Of a stretch of DNA of 38,419 bases, positions 11,860-21,704 are shown piece after piece. The notes under the pieces were generated by a model that saw nothing but the letters and a program-made list of their open reading frames with translations, did not search any database and was not told where the DNA came from. The stretch's first letter is position 1. Each line of letters begins with the position of its first letter. Both the position numbers and the translations under genes were made by a program. The DNA comes from Thermogemmata fonticola (lineage in GTDB: Bacteria; Planctomycetota; Planctomycetia; Gemmatales; Gemmataceae), in the NCBI RefSeq assembly GCF_013694095.1, contig NZ_JACEFB010000022.1, positions 1 through 38,419 of the forward strand, written 5' to 3'.

Positions 11860-12132
11860 ATGTCTCAAGCCATTGTTGACCCTGGGGAGCTTCGCCGGTT
11901 TGCTGCCTCGTTGCGGCGGTTCAACGCGGATTTGCAAGCGGCCATGGCCAACCTGCACGGGCAGCTCCAAACCCTGGGCGAAACCTGGCGCGACCAGGAA
12001 CACGAACGCTTCCGCCAGGAATTCGAGAGCACTCTGCATGCTTTGGAGCGGTTCCTGGAAATCAGCAACGAACACATCCCCTTTCTCCTGCGGAAAGCGG
12101 AACGGATCGAGGAATACCTTTCCCAGCGTTAG
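11860..12132 (+). CDS. WXG100-like (ESAT-6 family) protein
   Basis: The product is 90 residues, nearly all predicted helix, with a central turn at GETWRDQEHERF (Trp43, Asp45). This W-x-D variant of the Trp-x-Gly turn, the length near 100 residues and the two amphipathic helices match the WXG100 superfamily. Those proteins are substrates and partners of type VII secretion ATPases. No signal peptide is present, as expected. GAGGAA precedes ATG 11860. It is the first gene of a plus-strand run that ends in an FtsK/SpoIIIE ATPase, which strongly supports the assignment. Confidence 0.8.
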   Translation: MSQAIVDPGELRRFAASLRRFNADLQAAMANLHGQLQTLGETWRDQEHERFRQEFESTLHALERFLEISNEHIPFLLRKAERIEEYLSQR

Positions 12133-12296
12133 GGGGATTGCCCAACCGCTGAGCTATCAGGCGGGGTCGATGCAACGGTCAATCGCCAGAGCACGGTGAA
12201 CATCACACCGGACCCTACTAACACTGTCAAGCTTCTGCGAACTGTAGTTTGTGAACCGTAGCCTAAGACCTTCCAACGACAAACTCCGGGTGGCCC

Positions 12297-12923
12297 ATGT
12301 CGGAATCTGCGGAAGTCCTCTCTCTGGCAGCCCTGGCCGAATGGCAGGCGGCCTTGTCCAGTTACGCGGAAACCCTGGCGGAGGGACTGGCCGGAATCGA
12401 ACTCGAATTGCGGCGGCTGAGCGACTGGCTGGAGGAACAAGCCACGTACTGGAAGCGCATGGTGCGCCAACGGGAAGAGGAGGTGACCCGCGCCCGCGCG
12501 GAGCTTTCCCAGAGGCAATTTCCCGGCTGGGATGGCCGGGTGCCGGATTGCACGGTCCAAAGGAAAAACCTCCAGCGCGCCCTCGCTCGTCTGGAGCACG
12601 CCCAGACCCAAGTGGAACGTGTCCGCCGCTGGCAGACCCGCCTGCCCAAAATCATCGATGAAATCTACCGCGGAGCGGCCCACCGCCTGCAGCGCATGCT
12701 CGAAAGCACGATCCCCGCCGCTCTGGAGGACCTTCACGCCCGCCGGGCCGCTCTGGAAGCCTACACCGCCCTGGAACCTGCCGCGACCTCCGCTCGCGCA
12801 AGCAGTGGCATCCCGGCCAAGACGGAACAGGACCAAGGCACCGGCAGCACCCAAGCTGCCGCCCCTTCTCCAACACCGGCTCCAGTTCTGCCGTTTCCTC
12901 CTGAAAACGGAGAAGGACCATGA
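12297..12923 (+). CDS. Coiled-coil protein of the WXG100/FtsK locus
   Basis: The 208-residue product is mostly long charged helix (about residues 10-155, e.g. ELELRRLSDWLEEQATYW and KNLQRALARLEHAQTQVE). A Pro/Ala/Ser-rich, probably disordered tail follows. No signal peptide, membrane segment or catalytic motif is visible and I do not recognise a named family. Its stop codon overlaps the start of the next gene by four bases (ATGA), so the two are probably translated together. A role as adaptor or secreted partner of the ATPase is inference from position. Confidence 0.75.
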   Translation: MSESAEVLSLAALAEWQAALSSYAETLAEGLAGIELELRRLSDWLEEQATYWKRMVRQREEEVTRARAELSQRQFPGWDGRVPDCTVQRKNLQRALARLEHAQTQVERVRRWQTRLPKIIDEIYRGAAHRLQRMLESTIPAALEDLHARRAALEAYTALEPAATSARASSGIPAKTEQDQGTGSTQAAAPSPTPAPVLPFPPENGEGP

Positions 12924-13147
12924 GATTCGGCGCAACCCGCAGCCAGATTTACGACGCCCAGAAAACCGCACGCGCCCTCTGGGAGCACACCGAGCAATTC
13001 TGGCAAGACGACGTCTGCCGCCGCCATCGCGAGCAGATTGTGGAACCGCTGGATCAAACTGTCACGGACCTGTTGCGAGCCATCGACCAACTGGCCGCCC
13101 TGGTCACGCAAATGCGCCAGGAATGCGAAGACGAAGGAACATTCTAA
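12920..13147 (+). CDS. Small helical WXG100-like protein
   Basis: This 75-residue protein starts MRFGATRSQIYDAQKT. The centre reads EQFWQDDVCRRHREQ, again with Trp-x-Asp near the middle and helices on both sides, followed by EPLDQTVTDLLRAIDQLAAL. It is short for the family, but shape and context suggest a second WXG100-like protein, perhaps forming a pair with the product of 11860-12132. Its ATG overlaps the preceding stop (ATGA). Similarity to the family is by pattern only. Confidence 0.72.
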   Translation: MRFGATRSQIYDAQKTARALWEHTEQFWQDDVCRRHREQIVEPLDQTVTDLLRAIDQLAALVTQMRQECEDEGTF

Positions 13148-13262
13148 GGCCGAGAAGCTCCGGGGCAGCCCCGCCGAAACTTCCCGTGCAGAGATGGATC
13201 AACCGCGTACTCCAATGTCTCGTGGACAAGCTGCATCAATAGCCTCGTGGAGGACCCGTATC

Positions 13263-16200
13263 GTGTCAGGACCGGATGCTCCCGTGATGTCGCCGCCTGG
13301 TGGCGGCACACAGCAAGCCTCATCAAACCGGCAAATCACGGAGACCCTCAGCCTCCCCCGTCAGAGCTGGTTCGAGCAGCAATACGAGGCTTTCCAGCAA
13401 CTACTCGCCATTCACCAGGAACGGCAAACAGTCGAGGCCGAAATCACCGCCGCTTGGGAAGCCGAACGGGAAAAAGCCGAATGGGACCTCCAGCGCCAGC
13501 GCAAAAGCATCGAGCAAACCCGCACAGAACAGCTCAGCCGTTTGGAAGCCGAACATCAGCAGGCCCTCGAAGCGCTCCAGCAACATCACCAGAGCGAAGA
13601 GTACGCCCTGCACCGCCAGCGGGATGAGCTGCTCCACGAGTTGGACCGCAAGTATCACCAGGCCCGCAAGCAAGGGGAGGAGGATTACCAGGACCAACTC
13701 TGGCGGGCGGATTCGCTTTTGGAAGCGGGTGAGAAAGCGGCCAAGGAGCAATGGGAAGCCGCCCAACGCCAGGCCGCTGCCGCCCAAGAGCAACTGGAAA
13801 AGATGGGTCAAATCCTCGACCGCGTCCTGCAATTGCACCATCTCCAGCGTGCGGACATTCCCGTGCCGGTGGAATTGCCGCCGCCTACGCCGGACGAGCC
13901 TGCGGTGCGCCTCCAGAAGTGCCTGGACTTGGCCCAGGAGCAAATCGAGCAGTGGCAGCAACTCCGCTGGCCGCACTGGAGGGGCTGGCGCGTCGCTTTC
14001 GCCGCTGCGCTGCTTACCGCAGCTCTGAGCGTGCCTCCCGCTTTTCTCCTCCTTCCGCCCCTGGGGGCTAGCCTGGCCGCACTCCTGATCACCGGTCCGG
14101 CCACTCCCATTTTGACCTGGCTTTGGCACCGCCAGGTCCGCCAGCGGCTCCTCAAACGGGGCCGCCAGCTAGCCGAGACCTTGGCGAATGCCGAACGCGC
14201 CGCCCGACTTCTCTCCGATGCCGCCAACTCCCAATACGCCCAGGAAATGCTCCTGCAAAAGGAAAAGCATGCCGAGCGCCGACGACGCGCCGACGAACAT
14301 TACCTCCCCCTGCTGCAAAACCAGAAGGAACGCTACGAAAACCAGCGTCAACGCTTGATGACCGACTTCGAGCACAAAATCCAGAAGGCCCGCGAACAAT
14401 TCCAGACCCAGTTGGAACGACTAAAACAAGGATATGCCCAAGCCCGACAAGAGGCTGAAAGCCGGTTTGCCTCCCAACTCGCTGAGGCGGAGGCGGCCTG
14501 TGCTTCTCGCCTGAAGGCGGCGGAAGCCGTGCGGGAGTCGAGCTGGCAGAAATTGAGCGAGCGCTGGAATGCGGTCATCGAGCAGGTCAGCACTACCGTT
14601 GCCGCCCTGCGTCAAGCCAATGACATCTTTTTCCCTCCCTGGTCCCGCTGGCAGAGCCTGCCCCCCCCGCCCTGGCCCACTCGCGTCCCCTGGGGAATCC
14701 GCTACGGCGATTTCCTCCTCGACCTCGCAGCTCTACCCGGCGGGCAATCCCACGCCGGCCGCTGTTCTCTTCCCGATACACTTCTTGGACGGTTCCCAGC
14801 CTTCATTCCGTTCCCCAACCGCTCGGTGATGCTGCTGCGCGTCCGGGATGAGGGACGGGCGGCAGGCGTGGCTGTCTTGCAGAATCTCATGCTCCGCTTC
14901 CTGACCGGCTTGCCGCCAGGGAAAGTCCGCTTCACCATCGTGGACCCTGTCGGTCTGGGCGAGAACTTCGCTGCCTTCATGCATTTGGCGGATTACGATG
15001 AGAAACTCATCAGCGGACACATCTGGACCGAACCGCGGGACATCGAGCAACGCCTGGCGGACCTGACCGAACATGTGACGAGCGTGATCCAGAAGTATCT
15101 CCGCAGTCAATTCAGCAGTATCGAGGAGTACAACGAGGCGGCTGGGGAAGTGGCGGAACCCTACCGCGTGCTCGTCGTGGCCAATTTCCCGGCGGGATTC
15201 ACCCCTGAAGCGGCCCAGCGTCTGCTCAGTCTGGCTGCCACCGGCCCCTCCTGCGGCGTCTGCGTGCTGCTGAGCGCGGACACTCGCCAGGCCATGCCCC
15301 GCGACTTCTCGCTTTCCGCCCTGGAAGCCCTCAGCCTCACGCTCACCTGGAAGGAAGGACGCTTCGTCCCGAAGGACGCGGTGCTATCCGCCTTCCCGTT
15401 AGAGCTAGAAGCGCCGCCGGATGTCGCTGCTCTGACGGAGCTGATTCGCCGCGCTGGCGCCGCGAGCCTTCAGGCGGGCCGGGTTGAGGTTCCCTTCGAC
15501 TTCATCGCACCTCCAGCGGACCAGGTGTGGACCGCGGATGCTTCCCGAACACTCGCCGTTCCCATCGGCCGGGCTGGAGCCACCCGTCGCCAGGTCTTCC
15601 GCCTGGGTGAAGGCACGGCACAGCATGCCTTGGTCGCCGGCAAGACGGGTTCCGGCAAATCCACCCTCCTGCACGCCCTGATCACCAATCTCGCCTTGAT
15701 GTACAGCCCGGATGAAGTGGAGTTGTACCTCATCGACTTCAAGGAGGGCGTGGAGTTCCAGTGGTATGCGGCCCTCCGGCTGCCGCATGCCCGCGTCGTG
15801 GCCATCGAGAGCGAGCGGGAGTTCGGCCTCAGCGTGCTACAAAGACTGGACGGCCTCTTGCGGGAGCGCGGCGAGCAATTCCGCCAGGCCGGGGTGAACG
15901 AGTTATCCGCCTACCGGCAATGGCAAAAGCGCGAAGTGGCAGCCGGCCGCTTGCCCCCCGATGCTGCCCGGTGTCCCCGTGTTTTGCTCATCATCGATGA
16001 ATTCCAGCAATTGTTTGTCGAGGACGACAAGCTGGCCCAGGAAGCGGCCCTGCTTTTAGACCGCTTGGTACGGCAAGGCCGGGCGTTTGGCATTCACGTC
16101 CTTCTGGGATCGCAAACCCTCGGCGGTGCTTACTCGCTGCCGCGCAGCACTCTGGATCAGATGGCTGTCCGCATCGCCCTGCAATGCTCGGATGCCGATG

Positions 16201-17345
16201 CCCAGTTGATCCTGAGCAAAGACAATACGGCGGCCCGCCTGCTCTCCCGTCCGGGAGAGGCAATTTACAACGATCAAAGCGGGCTGGTCGAAGGCAATGA
16301 ACCGTTCCAGGTGGTCTGGTTGCCGGAATCCCGACGGGTGGAAATCCTGGAACAGTTGCGGCAGCGTGCCCAGGAGCGCTGGCCAGCTCCTATTGTTTTC
16401 GCCGGCCACACCCATGCGGATGTCACAGCCAATCCTGCCTTGCAGCACCTGTGGGACCACCCCGCACCCGCTAAGGCCCCCCTCGTGTGGGTGGGCGACC
16501 CCGTGGCAATCCGGCCCCCCACTGCCGTCCCCTTCCGCTCGCAGGGCGGCGCCCATCTCCTGCTCATCGGCCAGAATGAGGAAGCCGCCCGCGGACTCAT
16601 CACCGCCGCCTGCCTGAGCTTACTGCCCCAATTGAGCCGGGAGGAACCTTCCCCTTCCCTCGTCCTTTTGGATGGCACTCCCGACGATGCCGAAATGGCC
16701 GACTTCTTCCCGCGGCTCGCGCAAATGTTCCCCCCCCTCTATCTCCCCCTGCGTAGCCAGCTCGCCTCCGCGCTGGCCGAACTGGGAGCCGATCTCCAGC
16801 ACCGGGCGAACCAGGCCGCCAGTCCGGAATCCCGCAAGCGCTTCCTGCTCATCTTCGGCATCCAGCGCTTCCGCGAGTTACGCAAGGCTGAGGACGACTT
16901 CGGCTTCGCCCGCCGAGCTGCGGACCGAGAAACCACTCCGGCAGAACACCTGGCCACCCTCCTGCGGGATGGTCCCGCCCTCGGCCTCCACACCATCATC
17001 TGGTGCGACTCGCTGACCAACTTACAGCGGACCTTCGAGCGCTCGCAGCTCCGAGACTTCGCCTGGCGTGTGCTCTTTCAAATGAGTCCGAATGATTCCA
17101 GCCACTTGATGGACTCTCCCGCCGCTGCCCGCTTAGGACGCCACCGGGCCTTGCTCCTTACTGAAGAGAGCGAACGGCCGGAAAAGTTCCGCCCCTACGG
17201 CATCCCGCCGGTGGAATGGCTCCAGCGTCTCGCCGCCAAATGGCAGCAGCATCGCTCACAAAAGCTGGCAGTTCACCCTGCCGCCTCACCGCAAACAGTA
17301 GAACATGCTTTTGACATCTCGAAGACACTGCCCGAAACCCTCTGA
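13263..17345 (+). CDS. Membrane-anchored FtsK/SpoIIIE-family ATPase of a type VII secretion-like system
   Basis: The 1360-residue protein has a long N-terminal coiled coil (about 35-190). Two closely spaced membrane segments follow (about 242-293, starting WRVAFAAALLTAALSV), then a second coiled coil (about 295-455). The FtsK/SpoIIIE domain has Walker A GKTGSGKS (793-800) and Walker B LLIIDEF (Asp912, Glu913). A further C-terminal ATPase-like domain (from about residue 1090) has a degenerate nucleotide loop (LLLIGQNEEAARG). Tandem ATPase domains with a weak second site recall EssC/EccC of type VII secretion. GTG 13263 is chosen because GGAGG lies at 13249-13253; ATG 13194 in the same frame lacks a ribosome site. 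FtsK-type DNA pumping is less likely given the WXG100-like neighbours. Confidence 0.9.
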   Translation: MSGPDAPVMSPPGGGTQQASSNRQITETLSLPRQSWFEQQYEAFQQLLAIHQERQTVEAEITAAWEAEREKAEWDLQRQRKSIEQTRTEQLSRLEAEHQQALEALQQHHQSEEYALHRQRDELLHELDRKYHQARKQGEEDYQDQLWRADSLLEAGEKAAKEQWEAAQRQAAAAQEQLEKMGQILDRVLQLHHLQRADIPVPVELPPPTPDEPAVRLQKCLDLAQEQIEQWQQLRWPHWRGWRVAFAAALLTAALSVPPAFLLLPPLGASLAALLITGPATPILTWLWHRQVRQRLLKRGRQLAETLANAERAARLLSDAANSQYAQEMLLQKEKHAERRRRADEHYLPLLQNQKERYENQRQRLMTDFEHKIQKAREQFQTQLERLKQGYAQARQEAESRFASQLAEAEAACASRLKAAEAVRESSWQKLSERWNAVIEQVSTTVAALRQANDIFFPPWSRWQSLPPPPWPTRVPWGIRYGDFLLDLAALPGGQSHAGRCSLPDTLLGRFPAFIPFPNRSVMLLRVRDEGRAAGVAVLQNLMLRFLTGLPPGKVRFTIVDPVGLGENFAAFMHLADYDEKLISGHIWTEPRDIEQRLADLTEHVTSVIQKYLRSQFSSIEEYNEAAGEVAEPYRVLVVANFPAGFTPEAAQRLLSLAATGPSCGVCVLLSADTRQAMPRDFSLSALEALSLTLTWKEGRFVPKDAVLSAFPLELEAPPDVAALTELIRRAGAASLQAGRVEVPFDFIAPPADQVWTADASRTLAVPIGRAGATRRQVFRLGEGTAQHALVAGKTGSGKSTLLHALITNLALMYSPDEVELYLIDFKEGVEFQWYAALRLPHARVVAIESEREFGLSVLQRLDGLLRERGEQFRQAGVNELSAYRQWQKREVAAGRLPPDAARCPRVLLIIDEFQQLFVEDDKLAQEAALLLDRLVRQGRAFGIHVLLGSQTLGGAYSLPRSTLDQMAVRIALQCSDADAQLILSKDNTAARLLSRPGEAIYNDQSGLVEGNEPFQVVWLPESRRVEILEQLRQRAQERWPAPIVFAGHTHADVTANPALQHLWDHPAPAKAPLVWVGDPVAIRPPTAVPFRSQGGAHLLLIGQNEEAARGLITAACLSLLPQLSREEPSPSLVLLDGTPDDAEMADFFPRLAQMFPPLYLPLRSQLASALAELGADLQHRANQAASPESRKRFLLIFGIQRFRELRKAEDDFGFARRAADRETTPAEHLATLLRDGPALGLHTIIWCDSLTNLQRTFERSQLRDFAWRVLFQMSPNDSSHLMDSPAAARLGRHRALLLTEESERPEKFRPYGIPPVEWLQRLAAKWQQHRSQKLAVHPAASPQTVEHAFDISKTLPETL

Positions 17346-17394: not shown

Positions 17395-18453
17395 TCAGTA
17401 TCTCTCCCGTGACAATGGGCCACTCCGGGGAGCAAGATAGGCCTGGAGAAAGAGGGACCAGTGTTGCCAACGACTCAGGCGGACCCGTTGATTGAGAACC
17501 TCTGGCCCCGCCTGGTTCACTCGTTCGAGCAGATGCTGATACAGGGCGGTCATCAAGGAGAAGACGGCGCGGGAACGGGGCGGCAACAGGCGGAGGAGCG
17601 GTAGAGCCTGACGGAAGTAGCTCCGGGCGCGGTCCACTTGCCAGCGGATGAGCTGCGCCAGAGCGGGACGGCAGGCGGAGTCGGACCAGCGTTCCACCGG
17701 ACAGCCGAAAGCGGCCAATTCATCCTGGGGCAGATAGACGCGATTCCGGCGCAGGTCTTCACCCAAATCCCGCAGGATATTCGTCAGTTGGAAGGCGATG
17801 CCCGCAGCGATCGCTGCCGGTTCCGCCTCACTCCAAGGCACGCCGCGGCGCAAGCCCCAAATCGCCAGACAGGCCAGCCCCACGGCGGAAGCGACACGCC
17901 AACAGTACGCATACAACTCGGCAAAGGAAGCGAAGCGGACCGGTCCGGCATCCTGAGCCACACCTTCTAGCACGGCGTAGAGCCATGCGGGCTGAATGGA
18001 GAAACGGCGGATCGTATCGACCAAGGCAGGATGCACCGGATGCGTCGGCTGGCCGCGAAGGGCCAGTTCCAGCCCGTGCCGCCAAAGGTTCAGGGCATCC
18101 GTGGCTGGCGGCGATGCTGCCAGATCACCCGGCCGTTTGCTATCGAAACGGGACAGGGCGGCATCCGGATCCGGCTGGGAGGTGAAAGAGGATGGCACAG
18201 GTACGCCCTGTTCCGCTTGGCCCTCGCCATCCATGAGATCGTCACTGAGACGGAGAAAGGCATACAAGGCCTGCATCCCCCGGCGCTGGTGGGGCGGCAG
18301 CAGCCAGAAGGTCAGAGGAAAGGAGCTGCGGACCTGCTGGCACAAGCGGCGGCAATAGGTGTACGAAGCCGCCAAGTCCCACGGCTGATCGGATGTGCCT
18401 GGAGCTAGAGGCAGCGGGGGAAACGTCACACCGAAGACAGCCTCGAATTTCAC
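17395..18453 (-). CDS. Squalene/phytoene synthase family protein
   Basis: The 352-residue enzyme has both metal-binding aspartate motifs: DDLMD (71-75) and NILRDLGED (225-233, with Asp229 and Asp233), the latter followed by RRNRVYLP. These enzymes condense two prenyl diphosphates head to head. Related planctomycete proteins are of the HpnC/HpnD or CrtB type, so the product could be a squalene precursor, squalene or phytoene; sequence alone does not decide. The GTG start at 18453 overlaps the stop of the adaptor gene (GTGA), indicating coupled translation with an exporter operon, an unusual partner for this enzyme. Confidence 0.9.
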   Translation of the reverse strand: MKFEAVFGVTFPPLPLAPGTSDQPWDLAASYTYCRRLCQQVRSSFPLTFWLLPPHQRRGMQALYAFLRLSDDLMDGEGQAEQGVPVPSSFTSQPDPDAALSRFDSKRPGDLAASPPATDALNLWRHGLELALRGQPTHPVHPALVDTIRRFSIQPAWLYAVLEGVAQDAGPVRFASFAELYAYCWRVASAVGLACLAIWGLRRGVPWSEAEPAAIAAGIAFQLTNILRDLGEDLRRNRVYLPQDELAAFGCPVERWSDSACRPALAQLIRWQVDRARSYFRQALPLLRLLPPRSRAVFSLMTALYQHLLERVNQAGPEVLNQRVRLSRWQHWSLFLQAYLAPRSGPLSRERY

Positions 18454-19589
18454 TGGCCCAAAGCAACACGGACCCGCTGGCCAACCCGCAGGGGCGGCTT
18501 TTTCGCCGGAGCTGGGTCTTCCACTTCGATGATCGCTTCCAGGACACGAGTGTCGTTACCGGACAACAGGCTTTCGCCATTGGAGCGCTTAGGCAGGAAG
18601 GTCCCGCTGATGCGCCGCAACGTGCCGCTGTAAGTCAGGCGCGGGTCGGTGTGGTCGTAGATGGTCACCGTTTTGCCGATCAGGTCTGGGGTGACGCGGT
18701 GGGCGAAGTCCGCCTCGATTTCGGCCCGTACGATCCGTTTGCCTTCGGGAATCAGCCACAAGGCCGGCTCGCGCGTGCTGATGCCCATCGTGGTCCCTGG
18801 GCTGATAGTGATTCGCTCGACCGTGCCGGCGGATTTGGCCCGCACCGTGCACAGGTCGATCGCCGTTTGGGCTTTGGACACCTCGGCTTCCACCCGTTTC
18901 ATCGCGGCCAGGGCCTGGCGGACTTTGACCTGCGGGTCCAGGGCACGCAACTGAGCCAGCCGGGCCTGTTCGACACCCAATTCGTTCAAGGCGATCACGT
19001 ACTTGGCGTTGGCCTCGAAGAGCTTATCGTCATCCTGGAGTTTCTTGCGGATTTCTTCCTCGCTCAATTTGGGTTGGGCCTGATTCCGCCAGAAGTTTTC
19101 GAGGTTATCCCGGATAAGGTTGTAGAGGCGGGAATGAATGCGGACTTTTTCTTCCGCACTGGCGACCACTTTTTCCATAATGGCCACGCTTTTGGCATGC
19201 TGGTCTGCGGCAACTTTCGCCTCGTCCAAGCGGGTTTGGGCCAGCTCGAGTTCCGCTTTAGCGATCTCGAGGTCGCGCTGCAAAAGGGACGTATCGAAGG
19301 CATAGAGGCGGTCGCCGGCGCGCACGATCTGCTGCTCTTTGACGAAGACTTCCGCGATCGTTCCCGATTGCAGCACGGGGGGCAGGCCGTAGGCCACGGG
19401 CGGCGGATCGGTATCCACGGTTCCCAGAACAATGAGGCCGGTGGGGCGGACCGCCGGAGTAGAAAAGCGGTTGGACGCTGAGGTTTCCCCCTGGCCCTGG
19501 GTCAATGCCTTGGCTCCAAAGAGGCTGACCGCGAGCAAGGCTGCCCCCAGCAGGGCCATGGCCGGTCGCACGCGGAAACGCAACACCAT
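18450..19589 (-). CDS. HlyD/DevB-type periplasmic adaptor protein of an ABC exporter
   Basis: The 379-residue protein has one N-terminal membrane anchor (about 10-27), a barrel/lipoyl part (VLQSGTIAEVFVKEQQIVRAGDRLY), a long helical hairpin (LEIAKAELELAQTRL onward) and a C-terminal barrel (TVERITISPGTTMGIS). It should link the inner-membrane permease and ATPase to an outer-membrane channel. ATG 19589 is chosen because GGAG lies eight bases upstream and the hydrophobic anchor follows directly; the frame remains open 76 codons further upstream into the ATPase gene. No outer-membrane channel gene is present in the window. Confidence 0.85.
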   Translation of the reverse strand: MVLRFRVRPAMALLGAALLAVSLFGAKALTQGQGETSASNRFSTPAVRPTGLIVLGTVDTDPPPVAYGLPPVLQSGTIAEVFVKEQQIVRAGDRLYAFDTSLLQRDLEIAKAELELAQTRLDEAKVAADQHAKSVAIMEKVVASAEEKVRIHSRLYNLIRDNLENFWRNQAQPKLSEEEIRKKLQDDDKLFEANAKYVIALNELGVEQARLAQLRALDPQVKVRQALAAMKRVEAEVSKAQTAIDLCTVRAKSAGTVERITISPGTTMGISTREPALWLIPEGKRIVRAEIEADFAHRVTPDLIGKTVTIYDHTDPRLTYSGTLRRISGTFLPKRSNGESLLSGNDTRVLEAIIEVEDPAPAKKPPLRVGQRVRVALGQ

Positions 19590-19654
19590 GGCATGGTCTC
19601 CGTTCGGCAAGTTGGGAATCCTCCAGCCCTCGGCGGGCACCGAGCCAAGTGCCT

Positions 19655-20368
19655 CTAAGCCGGCAAGCCACGCTCTTCCAGATATCCATCTTCCAGATGG
19701 TAATGGACATCCACATAGGGCAGCAGACGGTGATCGTGGGAAACGACCAGCACGGCCGCCTGGCGTTCGTGGGCTGCCGCCCGCAGGAGTTCCATCACCT
19801 TCTGGCCGTTTTCCCAATCCAGGGCGGAGGTTGGCTCATCCGCGAAGACAAACGCTGGGTTTTTCACCAAGGCCCGCGCGATGGCCACCCGCTGCTTTTC
19901 TCCGCCGGAGAGTTGGGCTGGCTTTTTCCCCTGAAGTTTAACCAGGCCAAGCCGCTCCAGCAACTCATCGACCCGGCGGCGCGCTTCCCGCCGATCACCG
20001 CACCAGTGCAGGACAATCTCCAACTGCTGACGCGCGGTCAGCGCAGGAAGCAAATTATACCCCTGGAAGATAAAGCCGGTGTGCCGGCGGCGGTAGCTTT
20101 CCCGTTCCGCGGCATTCATCTGCCACAGATCACGGAGGCGGCCTTCTTCATCCACCAGGACCTGCCCGGCATCCGGTTCGAGCAAGCCGGAGAGAACAGC
20201 CAGCAGGGTGGACTTGCCCGAACCGCTCGGCCCCATCAGAAGTACCAATTGGCCTGGGTACAATTCCAGCGTGCACTCATGCAGCACCACCCGGCGGCTG
20301 TCCCCATCGCCGTAGGTCTTGACCAATCGCAGGCCCCGAAGAACAGGGGTCGTACCCGAACGCGGCAT
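19655..20368 (-). CDS. ABC transporter ATP-binding protein (LolD/MacB/DevA type)
   Basis: The 237-residue ATPase has Walker [10 protein letters not shown] (46-54), the Q-loop in FIFQGYN, signature [15 protein letters not shown], Walker [13 protein letters not shown] and the switch histidine in VVSHDHR. The size and the [11 protein letters not shown] segment match the DevA/MacB/LolD branch, which powers exporters with FtsX-like permeases. It lies between the permease gene (168-base gap, with repeats) and the HlyD-type adaptor gene (65-base gap), completing a DevBCA-like set. Confidence 0.92.
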
Positions 20369-20396
20369 ACAGCAGGCGTCTCCTCCTTTCTCCGCT

Positions 20397-20446
20397 GCTA
20401 CATCCTGAGTGCGTCTCTTGCGCTACATCCTGGGCATGTCTCCTGC
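20397..20446. repeat. Two tandem 25-bp repeats between permease and ATPase genes
   Basis: GCTACATCCTG occurs at 20397-20407 and 20422-20432, and GTCTCYTGCG at 20413-20422 and 20438-20447, so the period is 25 bases. Degenerate further traces follow, such as AGTCCGA at 20452 and 20482. The array fills much of the 169-base gap inside the operon. Confidence 0.7.
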
Positions 20447-20537
20447 GGCCCAGTCCGAGCTTGGCGTGTCTATCACGGCTTAGTCCGAACCCATCCGCTC
20501 AGCGTAACAACGCCTGCTCCCCGCAGCAACAGCTCCT

Positions 20538-21704
20538 TCAACGCAGCAGGGTCATCGGCTCGATCTGCTGCACGCTCCGCAAGGCGAATAGACCCGCCAG
20601 TAAGGCCATTGCCACCGTGAGCACAGCGGTACCCGCCAGAATCTGCCACCGCAGGTCCACATCGGTTGCAAACTGCAACGCCAGATATTTCAAACCGAGG
20701 CACACCGGATACGCCAAAGACACTCCTATGACACCGATCCAGAAGGCCTGGGTGACGACCAGCCCGGCGATCCGCCAGCGGGGAACACCCAGTGCTAGCA
20801 AGATGGCAAACTCCCGCGCGTTGGCCGCCGTGGCAGAATAGAGCGTCTGCGCTGTGATCACCATGCCGACAATTAGGCCCAGAAAGGCGGCGTAGCCGAT
20901 CGCCAGCCCGGCCTTGGTGCGTGTCAGCCAATACCAGCGGGAGCCGAAGGAGAACTCCGCCGCGGTATAAGCGGTCATATCGTCGGCGTAACGCTCTCGC
21001 AGATATCGGGCCACCTCCTGTGCGCGCTGGGGGGAATCACACCGTGCTAGCAGATATGTGACGTGGTCGGCAGGTAACAGCGGGCCAAGCAACTGCCGGG
21101 CGGTGTACAGGGAACAAAAAACCCACGGCGCCGCCAGGCTCTTCAAGCCGCGAACCGTCCCGACCACCGTCACCTCTTTGCCGTTGATCTTGGGCTTTGG
21201 GCCGTGGGCGTCCTCCAGCCCCAACCGCTTGACGTCGGATTCATCCACGATGATGGCGAAGGGCATCGTCAGGGCGTCCCGTTGTTCCTTCGTCAGCAGG
21301 GTGAGGGCGCCGGCCGCGCCATCATCGAGCGAACTGCCGAGTAGGAAGCACAACTCGGTCCCCCCCGTCGGCTTGGTGAAATTGGCGAAGTTAGCGATGT
21401 ACACCTCCGGCATGTGGACTCCCGGCAAACCCGCGACCCGGCTGAGGAAAGTCTTGGGAATCGGCTTGCCCAGATCCACGCTGGGGACTGCGGTGGAACC
21501 GATCCAAAGATCGGCGGAGGTGTAGTCGATGGGAATGGAGGTAATTTTGAACAGGCCCAGGAGCAGCCCGACCTGCAAGGCAATAAGCACGGCGGAGAAC
21601 GCCACCGCCAACACCCCAGCGGTGTAGCGGGCGCGTTCATGCCAGAGCATTTGCAAGGCGTAACGCATCGTATTCGATCGGATGCGGGACTGCGGAACCT
21701 TCAC
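20538..21704 (-). CDS. DevC/FtsX-type ABC transporter permease
   Basis: The 388-residue protein has an N-terminal membrane helix (about 28-52), a large extracytoplasmic domain (about 55-265), then three more helices (TKAGLAIGYAAFLGLIVGMV, WIGVIGVSLAYPVCLGL, AGTAVLTVAMALLAGLFAL). The cytoplasmic loop ANAREFAILLALGVPRWRI is typical of DevC/MacB-like permeases. The GTG start at 21704 lies four bases after the asparagine synthase stop; ATG 21668 (MRYALQML) is an alternative with no better ribosome site. It should work with the ATPase and adaptor encoded downstream. Confidence 0.85.
   Translation of the reverse strand: MKVPQSRIRSNTMRYALQMLWHERARYTAGVLAVAFSAVLIALQVGLLLGLFKITSIPIDYTSADLWIGSTAVPSVDLGKPIPKTFLSRVAGLPGVHMPEVYIANFANFTKPTGGTELCFLLGSSLDDGAAGALTLLTKEQRDALTMPFAIIVDESDVKRLGLEDAHGPKPKINGKEVTVVGTVRGLKSLAAPWVFCSLYTARQLLGPLLPADHVTYLLARCDSPQRAQEVARYLRERYADDMTAYTAAEFSFGSRWYWLTRTKAGLAIGYAAFLGLIVGMVITAQTLYSATAANAREFAILLALGVPRWRIAGLVVTQAFWIGVIGVSLAYPVCLGLKYLALQFATDVDLRWQILAGTAVLTVAMALLAGLFALRSVQQIEPMTLLR

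Follow-up and report, generated by a model that had tools for sequence, protein, structure and literature searches.

Descriptions of type VII secretion place it in Actinomycetota and Bacillota. A locus in the planctomycete Thermogemmata fonticola, where genes for WXG100-like proteins lie together with a gene for an EccC/EssC-like ATPase, bears on whether a WXG100/EssC unit secretes at all in a diderm cell. A preliminary description, made from the sequence of the 38,419-nucleotide stretch that was analysed (the window), read it as a minimal type VII secretion-like locus that may be reduced or distinct. We asked what the locus encodes, how it is retained and what it may do. As a compact four-gene relative kept together in many diderm planctomycetes, it lets the function of the smallest working WXG100/EssC unit be tested in a clean, single-copy setting.

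Layout of the locus

The cassette occupies positions 11860-17345 of contig C22 of the 4.81-Mb genome. Its four genes, g1 to g4, all lie on the + strand, with the following features.

11860..12132, + strand: g1, WXG100-family protein, 90 aa, W-R-D in the turn, C-terminal tail EYLSQR
12297..12923, + strand: g2, coiled-coil protein, 208 aa, proline-rich tail
12920..13147, + strand: g3, predicted second WXG100-fold protein, 75 aa, W28-x-D30 turn
13194..17345, + strand: g4, predicted membrane-anchored EccC/EssC-like ATPase, at most 1383 aa
13356..13973, + strand: N-terminal coiled-coil region of g4, about aa 55-260, from composition and alignment
13992..14126, + strand: transmembrane hairpin of g4, about aa 267-311, from hydropathy
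14613..15473, + strand: first ATPase-fold domain of g4, without Walker A, about aa 474-760, from the AF2 model and alignment
15480..16400, + strand: middle, active ATPase domain of g4, from invariant motifs and structure matches
15639-15662, + strand: Walker A of g4, GKTGSGKS, invariant motif
15996-16001, + strand: Walker B of g4, DE, invariant motif
16389..17207, + strand: C-terminal ATPase-fold domain of g4, without Walker A, about aa 1066-1338, from the AF2 model

The start of g4 is uncertain and lies either at the ATG at 13194 or at a GTG at 13263 that is preceded by a Shine-Dalgarno-like GGAGGA. The g2 and g3 reading frames share an ATGA overlap, which suggests coupled translation. Elsewhere in the window, a phytoene/squalene synthase gene followed by genes for an HlyD-like protein, an ABC ATPase and an FtsX-type permease (17395-21704, - strand) resembles a DevBCA-type exporter.

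The small proteins, the coiled-coil protein and the ATPase

The Pfam WXG100 family (PF06013) matches g1 at 33.3 bits, above the cut-off of 27.3 (E = 6e-8). HP0062 of Helicobacter pylori is the best solved structure for a profile built from 20 g1 proteins (E = 2.4e-13), followed by EsxB and EsxA proteins. The family aligns without gaps over 90 aa. At least 82 of 84 g1 sequences have W-x-D in the turn, so the WxG motif of the WXG100 superfamily is replaced, and a search of the last third of each protein found the YxxxD/E export signal in 0 of 84. In 76 of the 84, Y-L stands near the C-terminus with one to three residues after it. The same type of turn (WQD or WKD) is found in plasmid relatives from Caballeronia, Deinococcus and Rhodococcus, whose tails DYLQS, RYLHGG and QYLGR also carry Y-L, and HP0062 has WRD in its bend and YL close to its C-terminus. 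Because planctomycete g1, the plasmid relatives and HP0062 have both traits in common, we read the W-x-D turn and the Y-L tail as a putative subfamily signature, one that links the versions found in planctomycetes, in H. pylori and on plasmids and gives a way to find others. The single WXG100 match in the Thermogemmata genome is g1 itself. No second g1 or g3 was found there, and hence no WXG100-fused effector.

The profile search proposed for both small products, which placed g1 above the cut-off, gave no Pfam match for g3; nor was there a family above cut-off in NCBIfam or a match in PADLOC. The Trp-x-Asp turn that had been noticed in both short helical proteins is strongly conserved in g3, with W28 and D30 invariant in 60 sequences and WxD present in 94 of 94. 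The AF2 model, made with 60 homologues (pLDDT 90), is a hairpin of helices 3-25 and 31-71 with W28-x-D30 in the loop; it has the helix-turn-helix form of WXG100 proteins in only 75 aa, against an expected length of about 100. The nine best PDB structure matches of this model are HP0062 (the best, Z = 8.3) and Esx proteins, with Z between 7.7 and 8.3. Helical hairpins are a common fold, so a Z of about 8 is weak taken alone. An offset of about 15 residues in the structure alignments brings W28 close to residue 43 of S. aureus EsxA, which we take to be the site of its WXG motif. The g3 profile reaches PDB sequences only at E = 0.05, to an Esx protein, and the comparison of the g1 and g3 profiles is weak (probability 59) and local at the W-x-D turn. 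We conclude that g3 is, by its predicted structure, a second WXG100-fold protein, so that both small products can be assigned to WXG100 as first described, g1 by profile and g3 by model. In one genome, a weak second g3-like match (G036:C114:13505-13684, E = 0.003) lies directly upstream of g3.

No family in Pfam or NCBIfam matches g2 above cut-off, and PADLOC gave no match. It belongs to a conserved family with invariant Trp, Leu and Tyr positions. Homologues at three loci (L144:6451-7527, L147:5729-6820 and L175:6659-7648), at least two of them from Phycisphaerae, carry an Imm33-like C-terminal domain (E = 1e-14 to 6e-11), which would link g2 to the conflict and immunity domains of polymorphic toxins. 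The coiled-coil protein of the Caballeronia plasmid has no Pfam match, and its C-terminal part resembles a restriction-endonuclease fold when the sequence is judged by eye.

The g4 product matches PF01580 in Pfam (132 bits). Among NCBIfam models, those of EccC/EssC score 96-117 bits (EccCa, 117) and that of FtsK 18 bits. The nearest PDB sequences are 4nh0 (EccC of T. curvata) and EccC5, with EccC structures at 139 and 111 bits versus 44 for FtsK. The AF2 model of aa 474-1365 (pLDDT 90) contains three ATPase-fold domains, and 4nh0 aligns over 754 of its 892 residues. Its first domain (model residues 1-287) matches the EccC5 DUF domain 8rin (Z = 16.1), its third (model residues 593-863) matches EssC D3 6tv1 (Z = 16.7), and its middle domain matches FtsK and EccC motors at Z = 27-32. 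Superposed by itself, this middle domain fits FtsK (Z = 31.8) slightly better than EccC (Z = 28.5), and the fold is therefore not decisive on its own. The sequence comparisons and the predicted three-domain layout together place g4 nearer EccC/EssC than FtsK, in line with the kind of ATPase that had been proposed. The combination named beforehand as counting against the proposal, no WXG100 fold and an ATPase grouping with DNA-translocating FtsK, was not what we observed.

Multiple ATPase-fold domains are thus present, as the description of g4 as a tandem-domain ATPase implied, but only one of them appears active: Walker A (GxxxxGK[ST]) occurs exactly once in 74 of 75 aligned g4 homologues, where a type VII system is expected to have more than one intact Walker domain. 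Residues 55-290 are 53% E/K/R/Q/A with few G or P. Hydropathy in the hairpin region peaks at 2.04 and 1.87, and 60 of 72 planctomycete homologues have a hydrophobic span of at least 38 residues before the motor, several of the other 12 being cut by contig ends. By sequence, three-domain model and hydropathy hairpin, g4 has the form of a membrane-bound EccC/EssC-family ATPase with tandem ATPase domains. PADLOC matches of g4 (SspH, mad8) were set aside, as they cover only the generic motor.

Retention and descent among planctomycetes

Among the best 80 of 553 confirmed loci in a scan of named genomes, the named ones are all planctomycete. The synteny check that had been proposed was made on planctomycete loci in which 1.5 kb or more of DNA precedes g4, and 55 of 60 keep the order g1-g2-g3-g4, a recurrence far beyond chance. 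Carriers of the cassette include the culturable planctomycetes Singulisphaera acidiphila (locus L117) and Limnoglobus roseus (locus L107). No other gene family recurs around the cassette beyond scattered background in 104 distinct loci.

Co-retention was analysed across a sample of 294 Planctomycetota genomes, of which 39 have the first ATPase domain of g4, 40 have g1 and 38 have both; the three genomes with g1 or g4 alone are 72-87% complete, and in good genomes the two occur together in 22 of 22. The association is significant (Fisher P = 3e-44, a value inflated by shared ancestry). Among relatives, all six genomes without a long g4 match also lack g3; only two others lack it, and in both of these the g4 match is at the edge of a contig. 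In eight genomes the genes are dispersed and yet all four are retained; G033, for example, has g1 at 2.50 Mb, the g2-g3 pair at 4.30 Mb and g4 at 5.92 Mb. This retention of scattered genes is the strongest sign of joint function.

The cassette is single-copy in nearly all carriers. Two copies of the first ATPase domain were found in one genome of the 294 (G114:C126 and G114:C138). In the ATPase tree, 17 families require 20 label changes versus 48.7 when labels are shuffled, with some families not monophyletic, which indicates descent that is mostly vertical within planctomycetes rather than mobile. A phage link was considered and rejected, given that no g1 relative was found in viral contigs and that phages gave one weak match to the ATPase domain.

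Comparison with known systems and possible working

Like canonical T7SSa and T7SSb and the T7SSc-j systems (PMC11217815), the cassette combines a membrane-bound EccC/EssC-type ATPase with a WXG100 protein. Unlike them it has WxD for WxG, no YxxxD/E signal and one active ATPase domain, and no EssB, YukD, LXG protein or other effector was found to belong to it. The preliminary description had noted that the other Esx parts and any toxin substrate are absent from the window, and for some of these the absence extends to whole genomes: YukC/EssB and LXG proteins were each found in 0 of 31 relatives, and YukD gave one match (G032), unrelated to type VII secretion. That search took in YukC/EssB, YukD and LXG; for the T7SSa parts EccB, EccD, EccE and MycP the scope was the locus neighbourhood, where nothing else recurs. 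No recognised membrane partner or outer-membrane component was found. Judged from these sequence comparisons, the cassette is not a canonical type VII system, and the claim that it is a secretion system at all is unproven, as two defining features, the WxG motif and the YxxxD/E signal, fail.

The YukD-like match in G032 was rejected as a type VII part. This ubiquitin-fold protein (L194:1465-2659) adjoins an apparent E2-fold protein, recognised by eye, with a zinc-finger-like protein upstream, and the locus looks like a bacterial ubiquitin-like conjugation locus.

The cassette is not of a new kind: three sets of relatives have been described. A table footnote (6) in Zhang et al. 2012 (PMC3482391) lists solo WXG proteins with a YueA-like three-domain ATPase, its middle domain alone active, in planctomycetes, verrucomicrobia, cyanobacteria, bacteroidetes and some proteobacteria, and terms them 'mobile versions of T7SS'. 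The present genes agree with that footnote in having a solo WXG protein and an EssC-like ATPase of three FtsK/HerA domains of which the middle one is active. They differ in that the footnote calls its systems mobile and gives no gene set, whereas the present cassette has four members and a membrane hairpin, and the gene tree largely tracks bacterial family. In H. pylori, WxG and FtsK have been called a minimal type VII set, with HP0062 and HP0066 named (PMC4978471). Of the solved structures, HP0062 is the nearest for g1 as well as for g3; it clusters with an FtsK/SpoIIIE-domain gene (PMC3397514, PMC4978471) and is reported as a homodimer. The comparison was confined to HP0062 and HP0066.

The third set comprises TerY-P and CoCoNuT-linked operons. 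The CoCoNuT operon (PMC11090510) encodes two WXG100 proteins, a coiled-coil nuclease and an EssC-like ATPase that has a long coiled coil but lacks membrane helices; for stand-alone versions the paper refers to earlier work. Such operons resemble the cassette in the long N-terminal coiled coil, the one active middle domain, the two WXG100 proteins (one without the motif) and the coiled-coil protein. They differ in their lack of transmembrane helices, the nuclease on the coiled-coil protein and the VWA/restriction flanks, whereas the planctomycete form stands alone. Plasmid relatives likewise have no membrane hairpin in the ATPase and adjoin nuclease-like, kinase, VWA, PP2C, CARF, AAA and TerD genes, which suggests a use other than export there. 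On Caballeronia plasmid pSBC2-5 (L180:5555-18405), genes for VWA, WXG100, coiled-coil and small proteins, an EssC-like ATPase, CARF DUF1887, VWA, PP2C, kinase and AAA proteins stand in one run, a putative mobile WXG100/EssC-like locus in a TerY-P-like setting. The new elements are the WxD/Y-L signature and a membrane-anchored four-gene form that stands alone and has been inherited mostly vertically.

Wide conservation and the four-part make-up point to a real machine. We give an even chance to its being a stand-alone inner-membrane WXG100/EssC-like machine that also exports g1 and g3. In this model the membrane hairpin anchors g4, whose long coiled-coil stalks and three ATPase-fold domains face the cytoplasm, and ATP would be hydrolysed by the middle domain alone. 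The four-gene unit, the folds, the single active domain, the membrane segment and the joint retention come from computation; by analogy with EccC/EssC biology, the motor most likely works as a hexamer, g1 and g3 most likely pair as a WXG100-type heterodimer, and the conserved g1 tail (Y-L-x-x-R) would dock on the motor, probably on the inactive C-terminal domain, in the way that EsxB docks on EccC. g2 may be a coiled-coil partner that pairs with the g4 stalks or carries cargo. ATP hydrolysis would then drive the g1/g3 pair, with or without g2, through the inner membrane, and crossing the outer membrane would need a separate step. That the cassette represents a distinct diderm branch, defined by the W-x-D turn, Y-L tail, WXG100 pair, coiled-coil subunit and one-active-domain membrane motor and exporting protein across the planctomycete inner membrane with only four components, we suggest tentatively, at somewhat short of an even chance.

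The main rival keeps the same four-part complex without export. The WXG100 pair would belong to a membrane-tethered motor as fixed regulatory subunits or as sensors, and this motor would act on nucleic acid or envelope structures inside the cell, in a defence or stress module. The absence of canonical export signals speaks for it, as do the plasmid relatives beside TerD, VWA, PP2C, kinase, CARF and AAA genes and the CoCoNuT operon without membrane helices, which extends RNA-targeting restriction loci and has its coiled-coil partner fused to a nuclease (PMC11090510). However, none of those plasmid neighbours recurs beside the planctomycete cassette, planctomycete g4 has a membrane hairpin, and single copy with mostly vertical descent is unlike a typical defence island. 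We regard this reading as possible though rather doubtful, and the present evidence does not cleanly separate it from the export model.

Planctomycete proteins are often diverged, and unlinked cassette genes do occur; a true type VII system with its remaining membrane parts encoded at other genomic sites and too diverged to recognise would fit both observations. It is nevertheless improbable, given the lack of YukC/EssB and LXG proteins in the 31 relatives, the sole YukD match beside an E2-like protein and the absence of any further recurrent gene at the locus. An FtsK/SpoIIIE-type DNA translocase with accessory helical proteins would account for a middle domain that fits FtsK as well as EccC, but we consider it very improbable: the profiles strongly favour EccC/EssC, the three-domain layout is EccC-like, the Pfam matches of g4 include no FtsK gamma domain, and the same genome has a separate canonical FtsK-like gene (G000:C16).
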